Virus record (IMG/VR): IMGVR_UViG_3300030329_002520
Span: 1-28,422 of that record
Strand: one strand, 5' to 3'
From: a virus
DNA length: 28,422 nucleotides
A program made the position numbers and the translations under genes. Positions 1,933-27,495 of this stretch are shown here, piece after piece (position 1 is the first letter of the stretch; each line of letters begins with the position of its first letter). The notes beneath the pieces were generated by a model. That model was not told where the DNA came from, did not search any database, and was given only the letters and a program-made list of their open reading frames with translations.

Positions 1933-2167
1933 TCTAGGTATTGTTGTTGTATTAGAAAAGAAAACCAAGCAAAGAAAAGGTTGTTTGTTTTATACTTTGT
2001 TTAGCTGTTGATGCTGACGTATCCGGGGTGTTCCCCCACTCGGCTCCTCGTTAGGGTTTAAGCAGATGTTTAGTTGGTACGGCTGTCATCTCTAGGTCAT
2101 CAGTTTTCAGGCTTCCTGTGTGGTTCCTCCTATACCGCACGGGAAGTTTGTGATTTAGGAGATAAGA

Positions 2168-3544
2168 ATGTTATTGACTGAGGATCGCAAGGCTTTATTG
2201 ACAACAGTTGGTTACGGTACGTGGTCTGAGCAGGACGAGATACTTGACCATGAGGCGAGGATCAAGCTTGTGGCGGGAGGGGAGCGTGCTGGCAAGAGTT
2301 TCTTGGGTGCGTTGTCTATTATTAGTCGGTTGGATGAGTTTGAGAGTGGTGATATATGTTGGTTGGTTGCTAGGGATTACGAGAGGACTCGTGCTGAGTG
2401 GAACTATTTGTCGGAAATCCTTGGTAAGTTGGGTTTTTTGATAAAGCAGACCAAGCGTATTGACCCCGGAGAGATGGCTGTAGCGTGTGGCACCACAGAA
2501 AATCCGGGTGTTTTCACGATTAAGACTAAATCGGCGCAGGATCATCGGAGTCTTGCGATGGAAGCCCCAAGAATGGTGGTTGCCTGTGAGTCTTCGCAGA
2601 TAGATTACGAGAGTTTTCTAAGGCTCAGGGGTAGAATTGCAGAAAAGCGTGGGTATTTGTTCTTAGAGGGGACATTTGAGATGTCGTTGGGGTGGTATCC
2701 GTCCCAGTGGGAGGCTTGGCAGTTTTATAACCCTGATGATGATGCTATATCTTTTTCGTTACCGTCGTGGACCAACCAAGTTGTCTATCCCGGTGGCAGA
2801 GAAGACGAGGAGATACTGTCTTTAGAGCGATTGCACTCCGAAGACTGGTTCAATGAGCGTGTCGCAGGGAAACCAGCCCCACCAAAAGGGCTTGTCCACA
2901 ACATGTTCGATATATCAACGCACGTATCAGATAAAGCAGAGTACATCGAGGAAGAACCTGTCCATCTGTGGGTCGATCCGGGGTATTCGCAGGTCACAAA
3001 GTCCGCATATGCAGTGGTAGCAGTGCAGATTATGGGGGGACAGATTAGAGTTATTGACGAAATCTACGAAAGAGAGAAGATTACAGAGGAGATCATAGAG
3101 ATATGCCAGATGCGACCGTGGTGGAAGGACGTTCAACACGGTGTTATCGACATTGCAGCGCACAATATGGGCGAATCAAGACCTGTTGATACTTGGCTTG
3201 AGAAGGCAAGCCTGTATATGCAGTCAGAACGTGTCGGCATTATGGACGGAATCGAAAGATTTAATACATTCCTGAAAGAAAACCCCTCAACAAAGCAACC
3301 AAACCTTATAATCAATCACAAGGCTAGGGGCTTAATCTCCGAATTGGGAGGTTGTGCTAACCCTTTCGACGAGCAAATCCATGTTTATACTTGGCGAACA
3401 GACAAAGATAATAACGTAATCGGAAGACAGCCAAGAGATGCTTTCAACCACAGCGTAAAAGCAGTAACCTACGGATTAGTTGTAAACTTTGGGTATGCGC
3501 GAGCAGCAGGTGCGACGAAAATAATTACGGTAAACAGGTGGTAA
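2168..3544 (+). CDS. terL: Terminase large subunit (packaging ATPase-nuclease)
   Basis: This is the motor that pumps DNA into the prohead and cuts it. The N-terminal ATPase shows a Walker A motif GGERAGKS (residues 37-44), a Walker B MVVACE (136-141) and a coupling-like GTFE (168-171). The C-terminal RNase H-type nuclease shows three spaced aspartates in the expected contexts: VDPGY (D270), VIDIAAHN (D328) and PRDAFNHS (D424). The length, 458 residues, is usual. The ATG at 2168 has TAGGAG seven bases upstream. It opens the rightward virion operon and is followed after one base by the portal gene. The first 600 or so bases are strongly G/T-rich and the rest A/C-rich, an odd switch inside one gene. 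The small subunit candidate is 21 kb downstream. Confidence 0.93.
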   Translation: MLLTEDRKALLTTVGYGTWSEQDEILDHEARIKLVAGGERAGKSFLGALSIISRLDEFESGDICWLVARDYERTRAEWNYLSEILGKLGFLIKQTKRIDPGEMAVACGTTENPGVFTIKTKSAQDHRSLAMEAPRMVVACESSQIDYESFLRLRGRIAEKRGYLFLEGTFEMSLGWYPSQWEAWQFYNPDDDAISFSLPSWTNQVVYPGGREDEEILSLERLHSEDWFNERVAGKPAPPKGLVHNMFDISTHVSDKAEYIEEEPVHLWVDPGYSQVTKSAYAVVAVQIMGGQIRVIDEIYEREKITEEIIEICQMRPWWKDVQHGVIDIAAHNMGESRPVDTWLEKASLYMQSERVGIMDGIERFNTFLKENPSTKQPNLIINHKARGLISELGGCANPFDEQIHVYTWRTDKDNNVIGRQPRDAFNHSVKAVTYGLVVNFGYARAAGATKIITVNRW

Positions 3545-7684: not shown

Positions 7685-7992
7685 TGGCAATCAATCCTAC
7701 ATTCGCAGGCTTTCTTGAAGAAGAACCTCGTGCTGCTTTCTTTGGGACGCTCGGACAGAAAGGTCTAATGGATTCTGCTGGCAGGAGAAAGCAGGCTGAA
7801 GACATTTATTCAGGAGCAATGACGGAGTTTTACGGGAAGCTTGGAGAACAGATACTTGGTGGTGGAGAACCGACAATGACGTTCACAGACTTCCTTCAGG
7901 ACTTTCCGTTCACAGATCGGTTCGCACAACTAGGAAGACAGTATAGCCAGCAAAGCAGGTATCGACCTTCTACTAGATTCTTGTATTACTAA
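7684..7992 (+). CDS. Hypothetical small protein, 102 residues, between two large virion genes
   Basis: It begins in a TAATG overlap with the preceding stop and ends in a TAATG overlap with the next gene, so translation of all three is probably coupled. The product is soluble and moderately aromatic. An N-terminal segment (FAGFLEEEPRAAFFGTL) is followed by a helical region and a DFLQDFPFTDRFAQLGRQY stretch. The last residues are basic and tyrosine-rich (RYRPSTRFLYY). It has no recognisable motif. The context suggests a minor virion component or a partner of the two large flanking proteins. Confidence 0.65.
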   Translation: MAINPTFAGFLEEEPRAAFFGTLGQKGLMDSAGRRKQAEDIYSGAMTEFYGKLGEQILGGGEPTMTFTDFLQDFPFTDRFAQLGRQYSQQSRYRPSTRFLYY

Positions 7993-10900
7993 TGACAACT
8001 GAGTCCTTTAACCAGTTTACTGATAGAGTTGAGCAAGCCCCACCGACTACTCAAAGCCAAATAGCTAGGCTTGTGCTTGAAGCAAAACAGGGTGGTCAGA
8101 TGGGAGCAGTTGCGCGCATGGCACTGCGTTCTATTCCCGGCGGGACAGAGGCGTTGATAGCGTCAACTAGTCCACCACTGCCATACCGTCCTCGTGCTGC
8201 TCCTCCACCTGCACCGCCTGCTCCTCCACCTGTAGCTGCTCCACCCGCACCACCTGCTGCGCCTCCGCCTGATCCTAGCTTATTTGATAAAACGTTAGGT
8301 CGAGGGATCGGAGCAGTAGGTCGTGGTGTGTTAGGCGTGGGTCGTTTTGTGCAGCCAGCAGCAATGCCTGTTCTTGAAAACCTTGGGAAAGCTATAGAAA
8401 CAGGTGTTGGTACTGGCGTGTCAACATTTGGTGCGCTTACCCCCGGAGACTTTATGGGTCTTGAAAAGAATCTGGCTGAAGAAAGGGCTAGGCGTGGGAT
8501 TCAGACAAGTCTTCCTACTTTCATGCAAGCTAGTCCATTGCTTGGACTTGAAAATCTTATAAGAGGGAACTTGCCACAAGAACTTCAGGCACAGGCAGCA
8601 GCATGGCGCGCAACAGACATGCCTTCAACTACGTGGAACGCACTTCCGGGTCAGGGCATACCTCTTCCCGGCGGTAAACGACTGGACGAAATAGATGTTG
8701 GAGTTAAGGGCGCATTTGAACTTCTACCTGAACTTGGGTTAGGTATAGCCACAGGTGGTGGCTCTGCTGCTGGAGGTCTTGCTAGAAGGACAGCTACGAG
8801 CGCAGCGAATGTTCTTGGTGCAGACATAGCGAAGCTTGGTGCAAAGGGCGCACTAGGTGCTGGAAGGGCTGCTACAAGAGGAGCGAAGGCTGTAATGCCT
8901 TCAGGCTCTGCTGCAAAGCAGGCTGCTGCTAGGGGGGCAGGTGGAGTTGGTCAGCCTGTACGTGTATTCCACGGGACAGATCAAGATGCATTTGATGCAT
9001 TTGACATAAATCTTGCAGGCACTTCTACGGATGAAGGGTTCCTTGGGCGCGGGGTTTATTTTTCAACAGACCCGAACATTGGACGCACTAAAACACGAAC
9101 AATCCAAGCGTCTATAAATCCAAAATCTCCATTACGGATAGAGGGCGACCTTTCAACACCAAAACAAAATTTGGTTCAGAAAGCATTGGGGTTGCCAGAA
9201 CCGCTTACAGGTCAGGCTTTGACCGATGCTGTAACTGCGAGAGGGTTTGACAGCGTTATTCTTGATTACGCTCCATCTGGCTACCCACATCAAGAAATCG
9301 TATTATTTGATCCGTCATCGGCAAAGTTGCTTGGAGACATTGATGACGTAACTCGTTCTGCTTTACGAGATAGAGATGCTGCGTTAGCACGAGGAGAACA
9401 GCCCCCTCCTGTAGATATACCAATCACTCCAGCTAGGCAGGCTGACGTTGCTGCTGATGTTGAACCTAGACAGCTAAAATTTGATTTTATTGATGAGCCT
9501 GATATAAGCCCTGTTACTGGCAAGCCTTCTGTTGTAGATGAAGCGTTTGAAGCAAACCAAACAAAGGCAGTAGAACTTCCTGAAGGTTACGGTCGTTCCC
9601 CCGGACTTATCGAAGACCTTATTCCGAAAATAGTATCGCCTGATGTTGTTAGAAGAGCCGTTGAAAAATCTAAGAAACTTCTCAGAGCAGCGAGAATAAG
9701 GAACGAGCAACTTAACCCTAGCACCCTGCCGGGGATGGCTATGAGCGCAGTAATAAAAGCTGCTCCAGCACGAATAGGCAGTGCGTCAAATCGGCTAGCC
9801 CAAGATATTCGGGGGCAACTTACTAAAAGAGATGCCGATGGGAACAGGCTCTTTGAGTTTAGTGACGATGATATGAGGATTGAAAACATTGCTGACAAGG
9901 TATCTGGAAACAACCCTCGCTTAAGTAAATTAAATGGTCGGGATACACCATTAGAACCAAAACCAACTATAGCTGATCTTGCTCAAGACTACGGAGCGTA
10001 TCGTCATGCCCTAAATGATGACCAAAAAGCAGTTATGGATCATTTGCGTGTAAGAGCAGAAGGTTTAGCTGCTGATCTGGAAGAGTTTGGTTTTAATGTT
10101 GACTACAAAGCGGAACTTGGTGACGGAGGATTCTTTATTTCTCGTGGTCCAACACGACAAAAAAGAGATGCTAGAGTACAAGAACAACAGAGAACAACAA
10201 AAGAATCTTATAGAAAAGGAAGAGCAACAGACCTTAAGACTGGCGTACCTTTTACCCAAGTCGAAATGATTGAAAAGGGAAGTGAGTATCTGCCTGTATG
10301 GGATGAGTACGGTCAATGGTCAACAGAAATTTATGAATCTATTCTTGATAAACAGCTAGGTAAGTTTGTTAAAGAGTATGAAGACCCGGCAACTGGTAAA
10401 AAAATTGCCCTAACTACAAGTGAATTAGCAGGAGAACTTTCAATTGATGCACAAAGACTTCGTGCAGAAATATCTGCTGCTAGAAGAACGTTGAAAAATC
10501 AAAAGGTAAGGCTTACAGCAAAGCAGCAAGAATATGTTCGGGCGTTTAGAGAATTTGATACTTATACGAGCAAGCTGTCTACCTTAAGGGCTAAGTTAGC
10601 AGAAGCTGTTAATGCTAAAGCAGCACAGAAAATTGTTAAAAATGCACACAGAGATGCAAACAGAGTTCTAAATCGAGCGGAAGAAGTTCTAAAGGCAAGA
10701 CAAGGTAATTTGCAGATTGCAAAAATGCACTCTGCTGATTTACAAGATCAAGTAGATAGTCTTGTAAAGTTTGAAAAAGTTCAGGACGATTTACTTGCAA
10801 ATGCAGCGCAACGCTTGGAGGCTCAACAATTAAAGGGAGACACTCCAAAAACAATACTTGCAGCTTCGCAAAGAGAAGTTAGAGATGCTGAAAAATTTGT

Positions 10901-13412
10901 AGCCCGCACCAAAGGTCTGCGAGAACGAGCAGAGAGATTAACAGCCACTGCACGTAAACGTGAGGACGCTGCTGATGCAGCGGAAGGTGGAGCAGCGGTT
11001 GATGTAACACTTAAGAAAAGAGATTTTGACGAGTTAGAAAAACCAGCAGACGCAGATGTTGACTTTTACAAAGCCAGATTAGAACTTAGAAAATTTAGAA
11101 ACGAAGTAACTGCTCGTAGGGAAGCAATGGACAGGGCAGGGACAAGGCTTGATACGGCAAAGCGCAAGGTTGCCGAATCTCAACTGAAGCTAATAAAGCT
11201 TGAAGATAAATTAAAACAATTAGAACCAAAAATTGAAGCTGCTGTAAACGAAGCAACTAAGGTTCTTGAGCGTTCAACTCTAAAATATAGAAGCATCAAC
11301 GGTAATATTTGGCTAGACCCTGATGACTTGCAAACAATCAAACGCTCACAACAAGGGATGGAAGCTACGAGAGGTAAGTTGGCACCAATCATTGGTCCTA
11401 TTAGTACCTATCAAAGTATAAGACGAGCAATAGGTGCAACATTAGATGACTCTGGTATCAGTATTCAGGGTAAGTTGAGACAGTTTTCTAATACTCGTGA
11501 GTATTATCTTGCTTGGAAAGATCATCTTCAGTCATTGATCGGTAAGCCCGGACGTAAAGGCAAACGATTACAGCGTGAGTCAATGTCAGATAACGTGAGA
11601 AAGTTTGATGAAGAATCTCAGGCTATGGGCGCGCCAAGTTCTCACGAAATAATTGACCGAATGGGGATACGCTTTGGTGGAGTAGATACAGAAGTAACTC
11701 TCCGACCAGAAGGGATTACTGGAACAATAGGTAAAGCCCCGTTAATTCGTAGGGCTAACGAAGCCTTTGGTGCCTTCGGTGACATGCTAAGACTTCGTGA
11801 TGCCCGCAAAGAAATCATAGAATACATGAGGCTGTCTGGGAAGACATTCGACGAACTTGTTGCAGATGGAACAGCGCGCAAAATTGGGAACGGTGTAAAC
11901 GGTGTTACTGGCTGGACTCCAAACGGAGTAGCTGGTGTATTTGGTGACATGCTTTTGTTTGCACCAAGGTTCTTTAGGGCAAGAATCGAAACGCTACATC
12001 GTGCAATAAAAGGCATGGACACGGACTTTATGATAGACGCTCTTCCGTTTGACAGGCAGATTAGACGGAACCTAAACATCAACTATGGCATTAGGAACAG
12101 TATTGACGCAGACCAGTTAATTGCACGTAGGGCTGTAATAAAATTGGTATCAATGGGTACGCTTATTACAGTTGCAGCCAATGAAGTTCTGGGTCAGGAA
12201 ACAGATTTCCAGCTAATGAGAAACGGCAGAATGAATCCAAACTTTATGTCTGTCAGGCTAACAAAGCTTGGTGCGCCTAGAGACTGGAATATCTTTGGTC
12301 CTTACAAATCAATGGCTGCGCTTATGTTAGCGTCAGGCGGGGCTGGTTGGGAGAAAGAACCTCAGAAGGCATTAGATGCGTGGCTCAATTTGTCCTCTCC
12401 AGTTGTCGGAGATTTATTTGAGTTTATGAATTTCCGAGCATATGGCGAGTCCCGATTTGGCGAAACTCTTGGTGAGTACATAGCAGAAAGTCACATCCCG
12501 TTTGCGCTTCAGGAAGTGCCAAACATTATCAAGGAAACTTCAATAGGTAATCCGAAAGACGCTTTTGGTGGTGGGCTTTCAATCGGTCTTGAACTTATCG
12601 GTGAGCAAAGCAGTCCTCTTTCCCGGTCAGATATTTTGCAGGATCACGTAGGAGGTTTGTTTAGGTCAGGGATGGTTTCGGCTGATAACTATGAAGACCT
12701 TGAACCTTACGAAAAGAACGATGTCAAAGACTCGCTTGTTGCAGAATTAGAAAAGTTTGAGATTGAGAGTGCTGCCACTGGTAAACCTTTGAGGCGGTTC
12801 TTTGCGACAGTTGACATTATCAATCGTCGAAGAGATTCTCAGCTTCAAGAAGCTATGTTCTTTTTCTACGCAGGGCAACGCAGCGACGGTGGCGAATATA
12901 CCAAGCGTGATTTTATAGATGATTACTTCGACATCATTGACGATGCACGAGAACGTAAAGAACAGGTAGAAGAAACTCTTAATATTGAGTGGAAAGATAA
13001 AGTCATAGCGGATGATGATCTTGAAGCGCAGGCACTTGCTGCTTGGCACGAGGCTCCTTCTAAATCATTAACAGCAGCAGGCAGTTACTTGCCAGATAAA
13101 ATGAAGAGGTTGCGGGATAAAGTTCTAAAAGATTACCCTCAACAAGCTGATTACATTATTCGGAATACAAACGACACTCCTTTACCTCAAGGATTTTTAG
13201 AAGCGTTAGAACGAGCAGGGTTGAAATCTACAGTAGAGAGGATCAAAAAGTCTGATGCTGCTCGTCAGGCAAGAGGTGCGCCAGCAAGGGCGGTTGTTCC
13301 TTCTGAGGCATTGATTCCACCAGAGCAGCCATCAGGAATACAGATACTTGAAAACCTTGGGAAACCAGTATCAGAAACAGTCTTACGCACAAGGGAATTA
13401 CTTGCCCCGTAA
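7992..13412 (+). CDS. Giant virion protein with ADP-ribosyltransferase domain, 1806 residues
   Basis: This is the largest gene in the window. After a short N-terminus comes a proline/alanine linker (about residues 61-96). An ADP-ribosyltransferase-like domain follows at about 322-447, with VFHGT (H327), GRGVYFS (Y356) and QEIVLFDP (E435). These form the H-Y-E arrangement and resemble the ART domain found in phage polyvalent proteins. Residues about 815-1100 are long, charged and coiled-coil-like. About 1376-1402 is a hydrophobic helix (IKLVSMGTLITVAA) that could insert in a membrane. Position and size suggest an internal protein ejected with the DNA, like T7 gp16 in role but with a T4 Alt-like enzyme attached. 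The ejection role and targets are inferred. No lytic transglycosylase motif was seen. Start and stop are both clear: a TAATG overlap at the start and a double stop at the end. Confidence 0.8.
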   Translation: MTTESFNQFTDRVEQAPPTTQSQIARLVLEAKQGGQMGAVARMALRSIPGGTEALIASTSPPLPYRPRAAPPPAPPAPPPVAAPPAPPAAPPPDPSLFDKTLGRGIGAVGRGVLGVGRFVQPAAMPVLENLGKAIETGVGTGVSTFGALTPGDFMGLEKNLAEERARRGIQTSLPTFMQASPLLGLENLIRGNLPQELQAQAAAWRATDMPSTTWNALPGQGIPLPGGKRLDEIDVGVKGAFELLPELGLGIATGGGSAAGGLARRTATSAANVLGADIAKLGAKGALGAGRAATRGAKAVMPSGSAAKQAAARGAGGVGQPVRVFHGTDQDAFDAFDINLAGTSTDEGFLGRGVYFSTDPNIGRTKTRTIQASINPKSPLRIEGDLSTPKQNLVQKALGLPEPLTGQALTDAVTARGFDSVILDYAPSGYPHQEIVLFDPSSAKLLGDIDDVTRSALRDRDAALARGEQPPPVDIPITPARQADVAADVEPRQLKFDFIDEPDISPVTGKPSVVDEAFEANQTKAVELPEGYGRSPGLIEDLIPKIVSPDVVRRAVEKSKKLLRAARIRNEQLNPSTLPGMAMSAVIKAAPARIGSASNRLAQDIRGQLTKRDADGNRLFEFSDDDMRIENIADKVSGNNPRLSKLNGRDTPLEPKPTIADLAQDYGAYRHALNDDQKAVMDHLRVRAEGLAADLEEFGFNVDYKAELGDGGFFISRGPTRQKRDARVQEQQRTTKESYRKGRATDLKTGVPFTQVEMIEKGSEYLPVWDEYGQWSTEIYESILDKQLGKFVKEYEDPATGKKIALTTSELAGELSIDAQRLRAEISAARRTLKNQKVRLTAKQQEYVRAFREFDTYTSKLSTLRAKLAEAVNAKAAQKIVKNAHRDANRVLNRAEEVLKARQGNLQIAKMHSADLQDQVDSLVKFEKVQDDLLANAAQRLEAQQLKGDTPKTILAASQREVRDAEKFVARTKGLRERAERLTATARKREDAADAAEGGAAVDVTLKKRDFDELEKPADADVDFYKARLELRKFRNEVTARREAMDRAGTRLDTAKRKVAESQLKLIKLEDKLKQLEPKIEAAVNEATKVLERSTLKYRSINGNIWLDPDDLQTIKRSQQGMEATRGKLAPIIGPISTYQSIRRAIGATLDDSGISIQGKLRQFSNTREYYLAWKDHLQSLIGKPGRKGKRLQRESMSDNVRKFDEESQAMGAPSSHEIIDRMGIRFGGVDTEVTLRPEGITGTIGKAPLIRRANEAFGAFGDMLRLRDARKEIIEYMRLSGKTFDELVADGTARKIGNGVNGVTGWTPNGVAGVFGDMLLFAPRFFRARIETLHRAIKGMDTDFMIDALPFDRQIRRNLNINYGIRNSIDADQLIARRAVIKLVSMGTLITVAANEVLGQETDFQLMRNGRMNPNFMSVRLTKLGAPRDWNIFGPYKSMAALMLASGGAGWEKEPQKALDAWLNLSSPVVGDLFEFMNFRAYGESRFGETLGEYIAESHIPFALQEVPNIIKETSIGNPKDAFGGGLSIGLELIGEQSSPLSRSDILQDHVGGLFRSGMVSADNYEDLEPYEKNDVKDSLVAELEKFEIESAATGKPLRRFFATVDIINRRRDSQLQEAMFFFYAGQRSDGGEYTKRDFIDDYFDIIDDARERKEQVEETLNIEWKDKVIADDDLEAQALAAWHEAPSKSLTAAGSYLPDKMKRLRDKVLKDYPQQADYIIRNTNDTPLPQGFLEALERAGLKSTVERIKKSDAARQARGAPARAVVPSEALIPPEQPSGIQILENLGKPVSETVLRTRELLAP

Positions 13413-13431
13413 TAACGCTGTATCGTATTAT
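13402..13431 (+). promoter_or_regulatory. Possible promoter ahead of scaffold and capsid genes
   Basis: TTGCCC (13402-13407), an 18-base spacer and TATTAT (13426-13431) form a passable sigma70-like pair in the only sizeable gap (76 bases) of this part of the operon. Extra transcription of scaffold and capsid genes would make sense because they are needed in many copies. The -35 match is weak. Confidence 0.25.
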
Positions 13432-13488
13432 TTGAAAACCTAAATAAGAAAGTGTGCCATCTAACGGTGTCATATTTTGGAGAGAAAC

Positions 13489-14328
13489 ATGGTTACTGAG
13501 ACAAACGATCTAGGAACAGAATCTACGGTAGAAGTTACCGAAATCCCGTTGAAAGTTGACGAGAGCGTAGAAACGCCTGCACCAGCAGAAACGCCTGCGA
13601 CAGAACCCGTTGATGATTTAACGGAAACGGATGACTTATCTAGTGAGGTTCCTCCTGCTCCTGAGCCTCAAGCCAACACTGAAACAGAATTAAAATCTAC
13701 ACCTGCGCCTAATCCAGAGTTAAGCAAGTATCAATCTGCTACCGATAAACGAATAGCAGAGATGGAAACGCAACTGGCAAATGAAAGAGCAGCGCGCCAA
13801 AGAGCCGAGCAGATTCAGAACTCTTCTAATTTAGAGGCTGAAGTAAATGCGTACTACCAGAAAAATTACCAACAACTTATAAACCAAGGGTTGGATGAAG
13901 TAGTTGCAACGCAAATGGCTCAACAGCACACTGCTTTTGCAAAAGAAGCGTATCTTGCTAAACAGCAGGCAGATCAGGTTCTTAGTAATTCTCAGCAAAT
14001 GCAGAACGAGTTAAATACTCGTACTCAACTTGCTAAAGCATACGAATTAGCCACTCAATATGGAGTTTCGTATGCGGAGTTACAAGACTTACCTGACCCT
14101 GTAACTATGGAAAAACATGCAAAAGCTTTGTCAACAATTAAAAAGTTGGAAGGCAGGGTACAACAAGTTACTCCAGCCCAAAGTTTGAATAACGCAAACC
14201 CGGCAGCAGATGTGGCTCCTACTAATTCTGAAGATGTTTTAGATAGATACAACGCAGGTGATCCTGCGATAACTACAGAGATGGCAAAGATAGCTTCTAA
14301 GAAGTTAGGCTTTTCTATTTTTGATTGA
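13489..14328 (+). CDS. Capsid scaffold protein
   Basis: The ATG at 13489 is chosen because GGAGAG lies just upstream; an upstream TTG at 13477 would contain that site. The 279-residue product has an acidic, proline-rich N-terminal third with repeated PAETPAT-type sequence, then a long glutamine-rich helical region from about residue 75 (KYQSATDKRIAEMETQLANE and on) predicted to coil. The C-terminus is short. This layout and the position directly before the major capsid gene are typical of scaffolds, which fill the prohead and leave before packaging. No protease motif is visible in it or nearby, so removal may not need cleavage. Confidence 0.8.
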   Translation: MVTETNDLGTESTVEVTEIPLKVDESVETPAPAETPATEPVDDLTETDDLSSEVPPAPEPQANTETELKSTPAPNPELSKYQSATDKRIAEMETQLANERAARQRAEQIQNSSNLEAEVNAYYQKNYQQLINQGLDEVVATQMAQQHTAFAKEAYLAKQQADQVLSNSQQMQNELNTRTQLAKAYELATQYGVSYAELQDLPDPVTMEKHAKALSTIKKLEGRVQQVTPAQSLNNANPAADVAPTNSEDVLDRYNAGDPAITTEMAKIASKKLGFSIFD

Positions 14329-18004: not shown

Positions 18005-19887
18005 TGGCATCTGTTATTGGGAAGAATGAAATACTTCTGAATAGCGAGCGGTACAAGATCAATGGTCCGGTTCGTAAGACTCTTGTGAGTATTGCTGCTC
18101 CAAGATTTACCATCGGTGACACTCAGCGTGGTGCTGACCCAAGGGCTTCTATTCTCACACAGAACGACTTTCGTGGAGGTATAGGCTGGAACAGAGGGTT
18201 AGACCCCGGAACCGTTGACAGGGTGTGGTGGTCTGATTGTCAGACTAGGTTCAAGGGACATCTCCTTCTGCCTAGAAAATCTAACGCAGCCACAACACAA
18301 GCTGTTGGGACTATAAAGTCAATTACAGAATTTACTGTTGGGGCTAGTACAGATATATATGTTGTCCATTCCGACAACAAGGTTTACAAGTATCTAAACG
18401 CTAGTGATTCGTGGTCTTCCAGCCTAGATACCTTAACTAATCCGACAAAAGAAACGATTGTCTTTAGGGATACCACAGCTAACTACATGATCTTTGCTAG
18501 GGGGTCATCTGGTTATACCTATACGACTGATGCCTCTACGTTTACAGACATGGACGTTAGCGGTTCAGCGACAAGGAATGTTGAATACTTTACTATCTGG
18601 CATGGGCAATTATGGGGTATAGACAGTGAAGGTGTTTTAAAGCAATGGGCTTCTGGACCAACTGCTAACCCTACAGAGAAGGGTGCGTTACCGCTTCCAG
18701 ACGATTACGTTACGTCTTTGTTTGTTTATAGGGATGCTGCGGGTACTCCAATTATTTACGCAGGCACAAAGGTAGGGCTTTGGGCTTTCGATGAAACTAA
18801 TAATCGCTGGGAAGAAACAGAACTAAGGCTTCCGTTCCATACCAACTCTGGCAAGGGAACAGTAGTGTGGCGTGACGCTGTGTATTTCCCTGCTGGTAAC
18901 GCTATCTACAAATATCAAACAGGTTCTAACACAGCAGTAGTAAGCCTTGTTGGTTTTGATAGAGATCACGGTATCCCTGAAGCCTATGCAGGTCAGGTTA
19001 TAAAACTAATTGGAACCCATAATGATTTGCTTGCATTTGTAAACGCAGATATAGATACAAGTTATACCGTATTTGCCACAGGCAGGCAGGCTTCTGGACT
19101 GGGTGGTGCCTCTACGGTTGTTTCTGGGACAGGGACTTCAGCTATCTTAGGTTTTAATGATGTGGCTTGGGAAGTAAAGTGGACTGGTACAAACAACACA
19201 GGTCTTGAAAATGCCCATGTAGGTAGTGCTTACAACGAATACCGGATGTGGTTTGGCGTTGGAAATGCTCTTTACTGGACAGCCCTGTCACCTGATGTAA
19301 TAAACCCTGATGAGATTTCAACATTCCAGTACGCTAGTAGTGGGACAATGGAGACACCTTGGTTTGACGGAGGCGATGCTGCTGGTAACAAGACTGCTAT
19401 TTCTTTACGAGCCGTTACGTCAACTTGTTCTACTAATGTAAATATAGCTATTTCTTATGCTACGAACTTTAATGAGTCGTATACATCGCTTGGAACAATT
19501 ACTACTAACGGCACAACTACCTATGATTTTGCATCAGGAGTAGGTGTTGAGTTTGCATCTATTAAGTTCAAGGCGACTTTAACCAGTGACACTGTTTTGT
19601 CTAGCCCTGACCTAAACTTAATAGAACTAAGGTGGAGAGAAAAGATTCCACCTAAGTATGGTTTCAGTGTGACCATAGATGCTGCGAAAATGTTTAGAAG
19701 CAAAACGCCTAAGCAAATACTAGATAACATAACAACTGTTATTAACACCAACACGCTTGTTCCGTTTACATATAAAGATAATGATTCCGACAGGTCTTAC
19801 TATGTAGATTTGATAAGTGCTTCTGGGTTTGAATTTACAGGACATGACGAAAGAGGTCAGATACAAATACAGTTGGTTGAAACGTAA
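18004..19887 (+). CDS. Tail protein with beta-propeller, 627 residues
   Basis: Repeated blade-like units run through about residues 100-370. Each has a hydrophobic strand, a turn, and an aromatic strand such as IYVVHSDNKVYKY, QLWGIDSEGVLKQW, IIYAGTKVGLWAFD and AVYFPAGNAIYKY. This is the signature of a propeller made of 40-50 residue blades. The C-terminal third is beta-rich with a final domain (PPKYGFSVTIDAAKMF). Proteins of this design form part of the tail nozzle or hub in short-tailed phages, the position of T7 gp12. Coupling by TAATG to genes on both sides supports a shared tail role. No enzyme motif is visible. Confidence 0.65.
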   Translation: MASVIGKNEILLNSERYKINGPVRKTLVSIAAPRFTIGDTQRGADPRASILTQNDFRGGIGWNRGLDPGTVDRVWWSDCQTRFKGHLLLPRKSNAATTQAVGTIKSITEFTVGASTDIYVVHSDNKVYKYLNASDSWSSSLDTLTNPTKETIVFRDTTANYMIFARGSSGYTYTTDASTFTDMDVSGSATRNVEYFTIWHGQLWGIDSEGVLKQWASGPTANPTEKGALPLPDDYVTSLFVYRDAAGTPIIYAGTKVGLWAFDETNNRWEETELRLPFHTNSGKGTVVWRDAVYFPAGNAIYKYQTGSNTAVVSLVGFDRDHGIPEAYAGQVIKLIGTHNDLLAFVNADIDTSYTVFATGRQASGLGGASTVVSGTGTSAILGFNDVAWEVKWTGTNNTGLENAHVGSAYNEYRMWFGVGNALYWTALSPDVINPDEISTFQYASSGTMETPWFDGGDAAGNKTAISLRAVTSTCSTNVNIAISYATNFNESYTSLGTITTNGTTTYDFASGVGVEFASIKFKATLTSDTVLSSPDLNLIELRWREKIPPKYGFSVTIDAAKMFRSKTPKQILDNITTVINTNTLVPFTYKDNDSDRSYYVDLISASGFEFTGHDERGQIQIQLVET

Positions 19888-20282
19888 TGGCTGAAAGCAT
19901 TGACACGATTGTCACTCCTGAATGGTGGGCAGGAAGTGGTCCTGAGTATCTGTGCTGGCAAGCGTTACTAAAACTGGGACTCAAGCCGAATATAGATTTT
20001 TCTTACCAGTCACAAATGGCTGGAGGCAGGCAGGCAAAAGGAGGACGGGTTATAGACTTTGAAATTTATAACCCGCCTAACATAGCGATAAATGTGCAGG
20101 GAGTGTTTTATCATTACGAGAAAGGCGCAGCGGTAAGGCAGTCGGATATACTCACACGAGAATATCTAGCAACATTGGGAATAAAACTAATCTTTATTGA
20201 CGAGGACGATTTGATAGATAATGCAAGGGCTATCGTAGGAGATGCCTTAGCAGGAATAGACCGATCAAGGTTTGGCAGGTAA
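19887..20282 (+). CDS. PD-(D/E)XK-fold nuclease-like protein embedded in tail operon
   Basis: The 131-residue product has the order of a small restriction-like or Vsr/DUF559-type nuclease. A helix carries E20 (GPEYLCWQALLKLGL), then comes VIDFEI with D57, a strand IAINVQGVFYHY where the family usually has an acidic residue and K or D before G-x-x-H, R84 and D87, and finally LIFIDEDDL. Q71 stands where a catalytic lysine or acid is expected, so activity may be altered or lost. It starts in a TAATG overlap with the tail gene before it and is followed 6 bases later by the fiber gene. It may be a virion-associated nuclease, or a structural protein that has recycled the fold. Confidence 0.65.
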   Translation: MAESIDTIVTPEWWAGSGPEYLCWQALLKLGLKPNIDFSYQSQMAGGRQAKGGRVIDFEIYNPPNIAINVQGVFYHYEKGAAVRQSDILTREYLATLGIKLIFIDEDDLIDNARAIVGDALAGIDRSRFGR

Positions 20283-24132: not shown

Positions 24133-24293
24133 CCACAGAGAACAACATAACGATAACAATGCAGGACGTAGACATAGTGATGGCTTTGAACCCTGAGTTC
24201 AAGCAGCAGATACTTATTGCTGCTGAATCGAGAAGGCGAACTGAGCTTACTCAGAAGATTGAGAAGGAAGCAACAGCGAAGGCTAAGAAGTAA
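24129..24293 (+). CDS. Small helical protein, 54 residues
   Basis: The start is the ATG in an ATGA overlap (24129) with the previous stop, and the gene ends in a TAATG overlap with the next. The product begins MTTENNITITMQDVDIVMAL and becomes a charged helix (AAESRRRTELTQKIEKEATAKAKK). It is probably a helical hairpin or short coiled coil. Small proteins like this next to tail fiber genes are often chaperones or assembly factors, but nothing here proves it. Confidence 0.6.
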   Translation: MTTENNITITMQDVDIVMALNPEFKQQILIAAESRRRTELTQKIEKEATAKAKK

Positions 24294-24784
24294 TGGTTCA
24301 GGTAGCAAAGTATCCCGATACTGTAAATAAAAGAACTAAACTAACGCCTGTTGTTTTTAAGACAATTCTTGAGGCAGTAAGTCAAGGTAATTGGATTGAC
24401 ACTGCTGCTCAATCTGTCGGGATAACCAAAAGAGTGATACACCGATGGATTCAAATTGGAAGAGGGGATCACCCTACAAGAAAGCCAGTCGAACCTTTCA
24501 TAACTTTCTCTCAAGAAATTGAAACTGCTCTGGCAAAAGCTGAACAAAGTTTAGTGAAAGACCTTCGCAAAGAAACAGACTGGCGCGCTAAAGCGTGGTT
24601 GCTGGAGCGTGGTCCATCGAGGGATCGTTGGTCACAGAATGTTACAATCTCTGCACAGTTAGCACCTGCTGCGTCTATCTTAGATGCACTTCGTAGTAGG
24701 GCTGCTGCCACAGAAGAAGGTGAAGAAGTACAGCCTCTACAAATATTAGAAGCAAAGGAAGATTCAGATGCCAAAAGTAGGTAA
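24293..24784 (+). CDS. terS: Terminase small subunit-like DNA-binding protein
   Basis: The 163-residue product has a helix-turn-helix at about residues 34-54 (WIDTAAQSVGITKRVIHRWI), a helical middle with EIETALAKAEQSLVKDLRK, and the WRAKAWLLERGPSRDRW block that is frequent in small terminase subunits. The C-terminus is acidic and disordered (EEGEEVQPLQ), where a large-subunit contact is usual. It would choose the packaging site and start DNA loading. It lies 21 kb from the large subunit gene, which is unusual for most phages. An alternative is a HTH regulator, but the W-x-AWLLER-block argues for terminase. Overlap with the next gene is 17 bases. Confidence 0.75.
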   Translation: MVQVAKYPDTVNKRTKLTPVVFKTILEAVSQGNWIDTAAQSVGITKRVIHRWIQIGRGDHPTRKPVEPFITFSQEIETALAKAEQSLVKDLRKETDWRAKAWLLERGPSRDRWSQNVTISAQLAPAASILDALRSRAAATEEGEEVQPLQILEAKEDSDAKSR

Positions 24785-24884
24785 AAAGAAATTCCCTTAC
24801 ACAACAAAAGGTAAGGCTGCTGCAAAGAAAGCTGCTAAACGCAAAGGCATGAAGGTTAGGTCTAGAAAGAAAAGCCGATACTAA
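24768..24884 (+). CDS. Small basic protein MPKVGKKKF type, 38 residues
   Basis: A short frame with ATG 24768 begins MPKVGKKKFPYTTKGKAAAK and ends RSRKKSRY. The opening motif is one I have seen in many marine phage genomes, always in small lysine-rich proteins, with no function assigned. Fifteen or so of 38 residues are Lys or Arg, so it likely binds DNA or RNA. It overlaps the end of the terS-like gene and joins the next gene by TAATG, the same coupling seen throughout the operon. Confidence 0.75.
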   Translation: MPKVGKKKFPYTTKGKAAAKKAAKRKGMKVRSRKKSRY

Positions 24885-25210
24885 TGGCAGGTATTGTTAG
24901 CGGAAGTATAGAACTAGGGGGACTAGCCCAAAGGCTTACTCAGACTCCAACTCCTATTAAGTATCTGTGGATACAGACACCGATTGAAAACAAGGGTGTT
25001 GTTTTTATTGGGTCGTGGAGAGAGGGGGAATCACTTGACCATATAGCCAACGCTGACCCCATTCCTCCCGGTCCTGCTGTAGCACCCGGAGTGGACAAAG
25101 AGTTTATCTTTAGGCATCATGCTAAAGAAGCACCGTGTAATCTCAGCGAGATTTTTGTTGTTGGTAAGGAACACGGTGATGTTATTAGCTACTTAGCAAT
25201 AACTACTTAG
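24884..25210 (+). CDS. Hypothetical beta-rich protein, 108 residues
   Basis: The start is in a TAATG overlap with the small basic gene. The product has a beta-strand pattern: IKYLWIQTPIE, KGVVFIGSWRE, KEFIFRHHA, EIFVVGKEHGDVISYLAI, with a proline-rich link (DPIPPGPAVAPG) between. This looks like a small beta-barrel or jelly roll, as in minor virion proteins that stud the head or tail. I do not recognise the family. Confidence 0.65.
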   Translation: MAGIVSGSIELGGLAQRLTQTPTPIKYLWIQTPIENKGVVFIGSWREGESLDHIANADPIPPGPAVAPGVDKEFIFRHHAKEAPCNLSEIFVVGKEHGDVISYLAITT

Positions 25211-25218
25211 GGGGAAAT

Positions 25219-25515
25219 ATGACAACCGAACCAGATCAATCAACCAGTAAGCCTAAGAAGAAGGTAACAAGGAAACGAAAAAAGTCTACGACTGCAAAGA
25301 GAAAGCCACGCAAGGCACCTGCTAGAACAGTAGCACCGCCTCCTCCTCTAACTATTGAGGAACTCAAGGAGCAGGGAAGGGAAGCCAAGCAGGAGATTGT
25401 CAACGCAGTTGTTGAACCTGCGGTGGAAGTTGTTGGTTCTTTATCCCAGACAATAAGGGATACGATTAGTGGAGCCTTCGCTGGCTTGCTCAGTCGTAAG
25501 CGCAGGAAAGACTAA
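25219..25515 (+). CDS. Lysine-rich tail plus amphipathic helix protein, 98 residues
   Basis: GGGGG upstream supports the ATG at 25219. The N-terminal 40 residues are a Lys/Arg/Pro/Thr-rich, histone-H1-like segment (KKKVTRKRKKSTTAKRKPRK). A PPPP turn follows, then helices LTIEELKEQGREAKQEIVNA and VGSLSQTIRDTISGAFAGLL, and the product ends RKRRKD. The second half could lie along a membrane surface or bind a partner. It could compact DNA or hold a charge on the membrane. It is joined by TAATG to a single-helix membrane protein, so a membrane-linked role is possible. No family recognised. Confidence 0.65.
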   Translation: MTTEPDQSTSKPKKKVTRKRKKSTTAKRKPRKAPARTVAPPPPLTIEELKEQGREAKQEIVNAVVEPAVEVVGSLSQTIRDTISGAFAGLLSRKRRKD

Positions 25516-25682
25516 TGCACCCATTAGGCTGGATGTTTAAATACTTTATCGGTGCGATTGTTGGCGCAGCCACAGTTGTTCAAGCCGTAAAGATAGCTAA
25601 GTTTGAATTGGGGAACACTGTTGAGGGACTGATATTTCGTCTTGGTATTCACGATAATAAATACAAGAGGGATGATGAGTAG
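25515..25682 (+). CDS. Single-pass membrane protein, 55 residues
   Basis: The start is in a TAATG overlap. The product has one hydrophobic helix at about residues 8-25 (FKYFIGAIVGAATVVQAV) followed by a shorter amphipathic-looking part (GNTVEGLIFRLGI) and a charged end (DNKYKRDDE). One membrane helix plus an amphipathic helix is the shape of TatA/E-type proteins and also of small holins. The FG hinge usual in TatA is absent. Its closeness to the tatC-like gene makes both readings worth testing. Confidence 0.65.
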   Translation: MHPLGWMFKYFIGAIVGAATVVQAVKIAKFELGNTVEGLIFRLGIHDNKYKRDDE

Positions 25683-25776
25683 CTTCGACAGTTCTGTTAC
25701 TGGATTCCGTCGAAATGTTTTCGGTAGAATAAACAAGTTAGGTATTCTCAACTTCGGGAATAGCAAGAGAAAATAA
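25672..25776 (+). CDS. Small basic protein, 34 residues
   Basis: The frame opens with ATGATG at 25672 (or 25675) just behind AAGAGGG, and overlaps the previous stop. The product (SSFDSSVTGFRRNVFGRINK and on) is basic, with a short amphipathic middle and no membrane helix. It is the least certain gene of the cluster. It is kept because it fills the space between two tightly packed genes with a ribosome-site-like sequence. Confidence 0.4.
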   Translation: MMSSFDSSVTGFRRNVFGRINKLGILNFGNSKRK

Positions 25777-25785
25777 GAGGGCAGT

Positions 25786-25911
25786 ATGCCAAACGATCCA
25801 ATCATCATCGGTATAGCAGTGCTAGCCATTGCAGTTCTTGGTTACACAGCAATCAATGGAATGTTGAATAACAACAAGGGCGGTAAAGACAAGCCTAATA
25901 AAGGCGCGTAG
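25786..25911 (+). CDS. Single-pass membrane protein, 41 residues
   Basis: AAGAGGG lies at the right distance before ATG 25786. The product is a single hydrophobic helix (IIIGIAVLAIAVLGYTAI, residues 6-23) followed by a short polar, lysine/asparagine-rich tail. It looks like a small N-out membrane peptide. It sits 3 bases before the tatC-like gene. Holin-like and TatA/E-like roles are both open. TatA-type proteins usually have a longer amphipathic helix than this, which counts against that reading. Confidence 0.6.
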   Translation: MPNDPIIIGIAVLAIAVLGYTAINGMLNNNKGGKDKPNKGA

Positions 25912-25914
25912 TCT

Positions 25915-26826
25915 ATGAGCCTCTCCGCTTACGAGCGGGGGTTCAGGTTCGGTCAGCGGTTTAGGAACACCGTATTCCTGTGCATCTTGGCATGGAGTAT
26001 TGGGGCAGGGGCTACCTTCTGGTGGCATCCAGAAGTGTTTGCTTTCCTGCTTGCCCCCGCAGAAGAGATGCTGTCTCCCTTTGATGGGCGACCTGTCTTT
26101 ACAGCACCTCAAGATATGTTCGGGTCTACCCTGAGTTTGTCTATGAAGGGCGGGCAATTTGTAGCGTTCCCTGTGCTTGTTGTGGGTGCGCTAACAATGC
26201 TCAAGCCCTTTGTACCAAGACGCTTCTGGCTGTTCGTAACAACATACTCTGCAATATCCATTGCGATGTTTGCACTGGGCGCATCATTCGTGTTCTTTGT
26301 GATGATGCCTGTGAGCCTTAACTTCCTGCTCACGTTTGGTGCGGGCATTGCTCAACCAGTAATTTTGCTTACTTCGTATATGGCTTTGTTGTTGAGCCTG
26401 TTGTTCTGGATAGGGATAGTCTTTGAGTTGCCTGTAGTGATGCAGCTACTGGCTAAGTTCAGACTTGTTCCTTATTCAAAAGCCAAGACACTTCGCAAGT
26501 GGATTGTTCCGACAGCTTTTATTTTCGCTGCCCTTATAACTCCATCTTTGGACGGGACGCTCACGTTCTTAGTCGCTTTACCAATGCTGATCTTGTACGA
26601 GGTCGGACTGATAGCAGGGTGGCTTACTGATCGTGAAGGGAATTACTTTGCTGACCTGCCTATGGTTCAAAGGGTGTACCGAATAACTAAATCAGGTGCG
26701 GTGTGGGTTGCCCGAAAGGTACGTCAAGCGATAGGGTTAGCAATGCGGTCAGCCCTGTGGAGTAAAAGTAAGATAATAATGTGTAAAGTCCTGTGGCGGT
26801 GGTGGAATCGTTATGATTGGAGCTAA
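25915..26826 (+). CDS. tatC: TatC-like membrane protein
   Basis: TatC is the receptor core of the twin-arginine pathway, which moves folded proteins across the cytoplasmic membrane. The 303-residue product shows six likely membrane helices and keeps P48 (LLAPAEE), a GASFVFFVMMPVSLNFL segment in helix 3-4, F-E-L-P (E171) and a TPSLD motif (D213) with LPMLILYEVG. Those match E. coli P48, E170, D211 and its end. The N-terminal HLxELRxR motif that supplies E15 is not present (YERGFRFGQRFRN instead). The loop that supplies E103 reads VPRRFWLF with no acidic residue. About 70 residues past the last helix are basic and Trp-rich. The gene is in the phage operon after two small membrane proteins. The family is judged by eye from memory of the E. 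coli protein. Confidence 0.85.
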   Translation: MSLSAYERGFRFGQRFRNTVFLCILAWSIGAGATFWWHPEVFAFLLAPAEEMLSPFDGRPVFTAPQDMFGSTLSLSMKGGQFVAFPVLVVGALTMLKPFVPRRFWLFVTTYSAISIAMFALGASFVFFVMMPVSLNFLLTFGAGIAQPVILLTSYMALLLSLLFWIGIVFELPVVMQLLAKFRLVPYSKAKTLRKWIVPTAFIFAALITPSLDGTLTFLVALPMLILYEVGLIAGWLTDREGNYFADLPMVQRVYRITKSGAVWVARKVRQAIGLAMRSALWSKSKIIMCKVLWRWWNRYDWS

Positions 26827-26931: not shown

Positions 26932-27495
26932 TTAGAACCACGTCGCCCCGTAGTAACAGCCTAACGAAACCCATGTGAACTTAAATAATTTTCCCGCGAA
27001 TATGAGCAGAAGAAATCTTTTGACAGGGTAGAGAGTGCTTCCTGCTATAACGCCAAGGATGTCAAAGATGGGGTTAGGGATCGCGCTTCCCGCAAGCAAT
27101 GTTAGGGCAGCGTAGCGTGAGAATAAGTTCTTGAACCGCAGGTAGAAACGCTTGTGTTCAAAGAAGGACTTGCCACCCATGCCAGCTAGGTATCCGGTCA
27201 ACTCTCCGACAGCCTCTGCTGATGCTGCTACAAGGGCAACCATGAAAGGGTTCAGGTCAACCGTAGCTGCCACACATACGGCACCCAATGCTCCAACAGG
27301 AGCGAACACGAGTGCTGCTCCGATGAAGGCGAGGAGCCAGATGCTGGCGTAACCAATTGTCTCGATGTTGAATGAACCAGTGGTCCAGAGTACAAGACCT
27401 GTTGCAATGAAGACTATGCTTATAAATAGCGGACTAGCACGTAAGATTTTTTGGTGTTGGGCAAGCCAGTGTTGTTGGTAGTTCGGTTCATCCAT
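26932..27495 (-). CDS. VTT-domain (DedA/VMP1 superfamily) membrane protein
   Basis: The 187-residue product has a first membrane helix at about 21-37, a second at about 50-65, and a VTT core with AEAVGELTGYLAGMGG (residues 93-108) and a SAIPNPIFDILGVIAG segment (137-152), followed by a hydrophobic helix with a GK pair. The PNPxFDxxG element is the one I know from VMP1-like members. VMP1 and TMEM41B act as lipid scramblases, and DedA relatives move lipid carriers across membranes. Here the role is unknown. It is on the opposite strand to tatC, ends towards it, and has no clear ribosome site, so its transcript may be almost leaderless from the promoter at 27508-27537. Such a gene in a phage is unusual. 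Confidence 0.8.
   Translation of the reverse strand: MDEPNYQQHWLAQHQKILRASPLFISIVFIATGLVLWTTGSFNIETIGYASIWLLAFIGAALVFAPVGALGAVCVAATVDLNPFMVALVAASAEAVGELTGYLAGMGGKSFFEHKRFYLRFKNLFSRYAALTLLAGSAIPNPIFDILGVIAGSTLYPVKRFLLLIFAGKLFKFTWVSLGCYYGATWF

Follow-up and report, generated by a model that had tools for sequence, protein, structure and literature searches.

The open reading frame at 25915-26826 of a 28,422-nucleotide viral DNA (the window: positions 1 to 28,422 of IMG/VR record IMGVR_UViG_3300030329_002520) is, judged by sequence comparison, a true TatC homologue, which has lost the entire published twin-arginine (RR) recognition site although the columns that support the fold of the family are retained. 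The gene directly follows those of small co-encoded membrane proteins. Our leading but still tentative reading is that its product belongs to a Tat-derived membrane complex that is the phage's own, works independently of RR signals and acts late, with release from the host as the likeliest purpose.

The twin-arginine recognition site

The positions in and around the tatC gene on which the comparison depends are as follows.
25915..26826, + strand: TatC-like protein of 303 residues with six predicted transmembrane (TM) helices and a basic C-terminal helix (Pfam, NCBIfam, PDB sequence search, alignments and models)
25957..25959, + strand: codon of R15, in the column of E. coli E15 (alignment)
26197..26199, + strand: codon of M95, in the column of E. 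coli F94 (alignment)
26224..26226, + strand: codon of F104, in the column of E. coli E103 (alignment)
26425..26427, + strand: codon of E171, the retained counterpart of E. coli E170 (alignment)

The 303-residue protein matches PF00902 over residues 15-223 (E 1.9e-34, with a score of 119.8 bits where the cut-off is 25.1), and NCBIfam TatC models match it at E of about 1e-27, under their equivalog cut-offs. A profile built from the phage proteins recovered TatC chains of the PDB in a sequence search, and Foldseek ranked TatC structures at the top when queried with the first, low-confidence AlphaFold2 model. Both AlphaFold2 models (pLDDT 51 and 56) place the six helices correctly and are too poor for judging the geometry of the site. 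P48, E171, T209 and D213 (the last equivalent to E. coli D211) are retained. The original prediction had called a TatC fold plausible on the strength of P48, E170 and D211, and the Pfam match, the PDB search and the alignment support this. Its estimate of a basic, Trp-rich tail of about 70 residues was likewise accurate, as the tail measures 68 residues with a net charge of +9 and 7 Trp; the tails of the relatives' TatCs are also basic, 48-91 residues long, and helical in the models.

Compared with the bacterial TatCs (PF00902; E. coli and Aquifex aeolicus; structures 4b4a, 4hts, 9dzz and 9e01), the phage proteins share the domain, the six predicted TM helices and the columns R17, P48, P85, P131, F169, P172, T208, P209, D211 and E227, but differ in having H12, E15, F94, Y100 and E103 all replaced, with R at position 15, in carrying the basic tail, and in being accompanied by small proteins that are not recognisable as TatA or TatB. 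The roles of the replaced residues are known from the TatBC-substrate structure (PMC13323110): R3 of the signal contacts E15 via water and stacks beneath F94, R4 forms a salt bridge to E103 and is packed against Y100, a pocket of F94, L9, H12 and L13 takes up the consensus F of the signal, and L99 traps lipid. In alignments of the window protein with cellular TatCs, E15 is replaced by R15, E103 by F104, F94 by M95, H12 by F12, L99 by V100 and Y100 by P101. The residues of a functional Tat signal receptor (E15, F94 and E103, also H12 and Y100) are thus missing from the window protein and its close relatives alike (position 15 is Q in L004). The earlier assignment of E103 to F104 and the absence of both glutamates hold, but E15 falls on R15 rather than on R11, the alignment from TM1 to P48 being ungapped and R17 retained. 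One profile alignment moves the TM2-TM3 loop by one residue and puts an arginine opposite E103, so that the column is non-acidic in both alignments; the TM2-TM3 loop of the window protein contains no acidic residue. We also considered E7 as a replacement for E15. It is invariant among the close relatives, yet the deeper member L180 has no acid before TM1, so that E7 cannot be a general substitute.

To compare the site with the rest of the protein, we defined the site by the residues identified in the TatBC-substrate structure (PMC13323110) and counted a column as conserved when its conservation among cellular TatCs was 80% or more. In the close phage family 0 of 6 columns of the site are retained, against 20 of 24 conserved columns elsewhere (Fisher P 3.5e-4, to be read as a guide because columns are not independent), in line with the expectation that the E15 and E103 columns would lack acids while other conserved columns stayed intact. 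With an enlarged alignment the counts are 0 of 6 and 20 of 25 for the window protein, and 1 of 6 and 20 of 25 for L180. Divergence alone does not explain this pattern, since long-branch cellular TatCs (Ilyobacter, Collinsella and Priestia) keep all six site columns and lose 4-7 of the others. Of the 22 cellular TatCs in which both positions are covered, two have no E15 and a third has no E103, and none lacks both. Plasmids and chromids contribute most of this sample, which also includes E. coli and Aquifex and contains no Chloroflexota; the Aquifex sequence used agrees with the PDB alignment. The cellular TatC without E103, encoded on a Miltoncostaea oceani plasmid (L171), has S in that column and may be a second instance of an altered signal site.

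The nearest parallels are found among divergent TatCs of mitochondria. One example, the Naegleria protein, which is unable to replace E. coli TatC, resembles the phage proteins in having lost F94 and in lacking recognised partners, but it works in an organelle, has also lost the E170 that the phage proteins keep, and is not accompanied by a co-encoded cassette (PMC6251230).

The tatC cassette and its neighbours

The cassette follows the tail genes and the probable small-terminase gene, at the end of the late co-directional block, and its genes and flanks in the window are listed below.
24293..24784, + strand: probable small terminase subunit of 163 residues with a helix-turn-helix (HTH_29 below cut-off), a likely assignment made from position and composition
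25219..25515, + strand: gene 1, 98 residues, rich in K/R in its N-terminal part and with a helical tail, conserved, at the C-terminus, ..GAFAGLLSRKRRKD
25515..25682, + strand: gene 2a, 55-residue membrane protein MHPLGWMFKYF.., matching the start of an 85-92-residue MGW.. protein of deeper phages
25672..25776, + strand: small conserved reading frame of 34 residues, MMSSFDSS..SKRK, found upstream of the tatC loci examined
25786..25911, + strand: gene 3, 41-residue single-TM protein MPNDPIIIGIAVLAIAVLGYTAI.., with an acid just before the TM segment and a Lys-rich C-terminus, predicted to be N-out/C-in
26932..27495, - strand: VTT-domain (DedA-superfamily) membrane protein of 187 residues, directly after tatC (PF09335, 36.2 bits against a cut-off of 33.9)

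In most close relatives the identity of gene 1 is 72-84%, whereas in G003 it is 56%, and its homologues of 79-125 residues stand upstream of tatC in other phages, with deeper ones in L153, L154, L179, L180 and L152. The deeper phages have the same order of genes, namely gene 1 (79-117 residues there), the MGW protein, a 40-55-residue MNEW single-TM protein and tatC. The MGW protein seems to be split at 25515-25776 of the window, and in the close family generally, into a 55-residue and a 34-residue reading frame, the latter of which is possibly the second half of gene 2. The first 23 residues of gene 3 are almost invariant, a single-TM gene 3 adjoins the close tatC orthologues wherever upstream sequence exists, and every contig recovered in a scan with gene 3 had already been identified as a carrier of tatC; in L179 gene 3 was not found upstream of tatC. 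The conservation of these co-encoded small membrane proteins suggests that the phage TatC works with phage partners, and the four-gene cassette would be new as a working unit.

Gene 3 is similar in layout to TatA and to the small holins of the TpeE type (PMC9527704), having a short single TM segment with an acid just before it, a basic cytoplasmic tail and, in deeper members, a glycine hinge. It differs from TatA in that no sequence homology was found and that the 41-residue window protein has little or no amphipathic helix. Neither gene 3 nor gene 2 is supported as a recognisable TatA by profile comparison (hhalign probability 5.7% and 0.4%, respectively), and Pfam gave no TatA match.

The VTT gene lies beside tatC on the opposite strand in six loci (the window, G001, G004, G005, L153 and L154), and L177 has a VTT match of 42 bits. 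It resembles the DedA/VTT proteins in passing the VTT cut-off, the difference being that it is phage-borne and placed next to tatC. According to the title of Sikdar & Doerrler 2010, as cited in PMC6849406, E. coli DedA mutants export Tat amidases poorly; a link between the VTT gene and Tat in these phages is no more than suggestive. The surroundings of the cassette contain nothing of note among RNA families, tRNAs and repeats, and the search for anti-phage defence families gave no match. Two further genes of the window deserve mention. A small family (g24884) precedes it at 24884-25210 of the window, and a related-looking protein follows it in L180 (10952-11278). Within the tail block, a 131-residue protein (19887-20282, + strand), which is 82-98% identical in most relatives, has a weak restriction-endonuclease-like match (MTES_1575).

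Relatives, descent and exchange of the cassette

A scan of 2.9 million viral contigs yielded 16 contigs with orthologues whose best segments are 69-93% identical. All 11 full-length close sequences (the window and its relatives) and two at about 45% identity lack both E15 and E103; in the full-length close orthologues M95, F104, E7, P48 and D213 are invariant, and position 15 is R except for the Q of L004. Searching first with the neighbouring gene and afterwards with TatC led to the deeper members L153 and L154 (about 45% identical to the window protein), L179 and L180. All four have R in the E15 column, and the E103 column holds Q in L153, L154 and L179 and E in L180. In trees with the 22 cellular TatCs, the phage proteins fall together on one branch with a long stem and support of 100/100, the basal order of L179 and L180 not being resolved. 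Because of this distribution of E, Q and F on the one hand and of R on the other, E103 seems most simply to have been lost inside the phage clade (E to Q to F), and R15 is common to nearly the whole clade. This is thus a natural TatC family in which the site has apparently been removed stepwise while the remainder was kept; the dispensability of the RR site of TatC has so far been addressed mainly with mutants and divergent organelle TatCs. The median dN/dS of the TatC domain is 0.10 over 55 pairs (NG86, median dS 1.1), which indicates that tatC is in use and under purifying selection. In the phage TatC of L006 (8001-8915), E171 is replaced by Q and TM4 is longer by one residue; some cellular TatCs likewise have Q at the E171 position.

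A tatC gene in a late phage operon had been described as unusual, and this is the case, since 50,697 phage records gave only 5 TatC matches, all weak. We rejected these as true relatives: the annotated match sits inside a bacterial tatABC operon and, apart from a second record of the annotated phage, the remainder come from short scaffolds that carry no annotation. That phage, named Acinetobacter phage MD-2021a, is represented by two records that match alike in tatC (CAKLQH020000005 and CAKLQF020000005, 219-kb); in the record examined, rdgB and alkaline phosphatase genes accompany a chromosomal tatABC operon, and the DNA resembles that of a bacterium. Two pattern scans of GTDB genomes, run with the phage TatC and with the capsid protein, found no relative, which excludes close ones only.

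The cassette is more alike than the core genes between distant phages, which points to its exchange as a unit. Between the window and G008 the identity is 72% for TatC, 73% for gene 1 and 90% for RusA, but 24% for TerL and 29% for MCP; between the window and G013 it is 80% for TatC and 26% for the portal protein. The slot itself also appears to vary. In the sister phage G032 (L142), whose MCP is 84% identical, TatC is absent from the 19.2-kb contig, and the interval between the small terminase and RusA genes (2147-3514) encodes a 109-residue membrane protein, a 292-residue TM protein whose outer part is large, and a 50-residue protein with two hydrophobic stretches. With other membrane proteins in the place of tatC, the slot after the small terminase seems to carry exchangeable membrane modules.

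Two genomes with exact end repeats, G002 (36,874 bp, 95-bp repeat) and G042 (40,487 bp, 127-bp repeat), were taken as complete. Their tested proteins include PrimPol, RusA, an exonuclease, capsid, terminase and tail-type proteins, and among the proteins tested (a set that omits some small reading frames) neither Pfam nor PHROGs identified a holin, endolysin or spanin. Besides a few doubtful reading frames, the membrane proteins of these two genomes are those of the cassette, together with the VTT protein in G042 and a hydrophobic stretch of a giant protein in G002. No convincing RR-signal protein was found in G002 and G042, and a search of G002 and the 42-kb contig G003 beyond the cassette gave no phage protein with a convincing hydrophobic signal at its N-terminus.

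Candidate roles of the phage TatC

The late, phage-owned complex that we tentatively favour would have the phage TatC as the derived core of the four-gene membrane cassette. The protein would no longer serve as a receptor for RR signals, and would assemble with gene 3, which is TatA-like in layout and not in sequence, with gene 2 and possibly with host TatA. Such an assembly, expressed late, may weaken the membrane or translocate proteins, its likeliest job being release, for which it would substitute for a holin by opening the membrane or letting out a lysis enzyme. A common mechanism of membrane weakening has been proposed for TatA and small holins (PMC9527704), and the adjoining VTT/DedA-type gene would fit an envelope function. 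The late position and the membrane proteins fit a lysis cassette, and no muralytic enzyme was recognised by Pfam or PHROGs in the tested G002 and G042 proteins. Many marine phages carry unrecognised lysis genes, so that the absence of a lysis match is a weak argument. That marine phages have made a captured TatC the core of an RR-independent membrane machine with two or three small partners of their own, which moves a phage or host protein or breaks the membrane and so replaces a holin, we consider possible, with considerable doubt.

The closest rival is a true translocase of changed specificity, which would read its signal by hydrophobicity or by an altered (e.g., acidic) motif suiting R15 and would spare the RR substrates of the host. 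We judge this rather unlikely overall. The scaffold columns are kept while the site is specifically rebuilt in a pattern invariant in the close family, and the E103 of L180 together with the Q of L179, L153 and L154 describes a graded change and not a collapse. In E. coli TatC, E103G/K and F94S are inactivating and E15G is mild (PMC3712464), but transport by the F94D and E103K proteins is restored by more hydrophobic signals, and E. coli Tat transports without the RR motif or its site on TatC when given such a signal (PMC5539426). A TatC without the site is therefore not necessarily dead. The co-encoded TM protein also has an acid just before its TM segment, as is usual for TatA in two-component systems (PMC9527704). 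On the other hand, with no convincing signal-bearing phage protein outside the cassette in G002 and G003, such a translocase would need a cargo that is unusual or comes from the host.

The original prediction had offered a role as decoy or retargeting subunit of host Tat complexes, and a decoy is not supported as the leading idea. As a decoy, the phage TatC would mix with host TatA, TatB and TatC and block export, for instance of amidases, or exclude other phages. TatC is an obligate oligomer (PMC5102672), residues in the periplasmic cap and in TM5/TM6 have for the most part been retained (P48, T208 and D211, with Q215 changed to T in the window type), and the cassette moves among phages that probably share hosts, all of which agree with interference. 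However, the dominant-negative single substitutions of E. coli TatC lie in the periplasmic cap (P48L, M59K, S66P, V145E and D150Y) and none at the signal site (PMC5102672), which makes a simple decoy less likely; the phage TatC retains the cap residue P48, and three conserved partner genes would be superfluous. The cap-mapped dominant negatives and the co-encoded membrane proteins lead us to prefer a phage-owned assembly to a decoy; the latter we regard as unlikely.

A role in another step of infection, such as entry, superinfection exclusion or membrane-associated virion assembly with TatC as an oligomeric scaffold, appears more doubtful still. It would suit the position of the cassette among virion-type genes, beside small basic proteins and the g24884 family, as well as the basic, helical tails of the TatCs, but six-TM proteins are, to our knowledge, unusual as virion parts of tailed phages. 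Finally, although marine phages often pick up host genes, a decaying host-derived tatC with a drifted site, or a mis-binned host gene, is very improbable, since the low dN/dS, the invariant site residues and the synteny conserved among members about 45% identical contradict decay and host contamination, a pattern scan found no proteobacterial-type tatC in the viral collection, and the window record holds capsid and terminase genes.

If the phage-owned complex does open membranes or move proteins, it would be the first Tat-derived device for phage release or export known to us, and would offer a small test system for roles of TatC other than signal reading. A probable member of the same lineage has been reported in a sea-surface study as a circular marine virus (Virus_1 of 39.7 kb or Virus_2 of 35.1 kb), whose TatC is labelled in a figure legend only (PMC10564846). 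Like the phages described here, it combines TatC with a bifunctional primase/polymerase and a terminase. We found no sequence analysis of the label, and the k-mer link to Porticoccus in that study concerns a virus that is not matchable to the window phage.

The giant protein mentioned above, 1,800-2,800 residues long, is encoded between the portal and capsid genes (window 7992-13412, + strand; G002 23270-29716; G004 26570-35026; G042 8468-13876). In the window it weakly matches, below the cut-off, an ADP-ribosyltransferase domain known from polyvalent proteins, and its length is strongly variable among the relatives.
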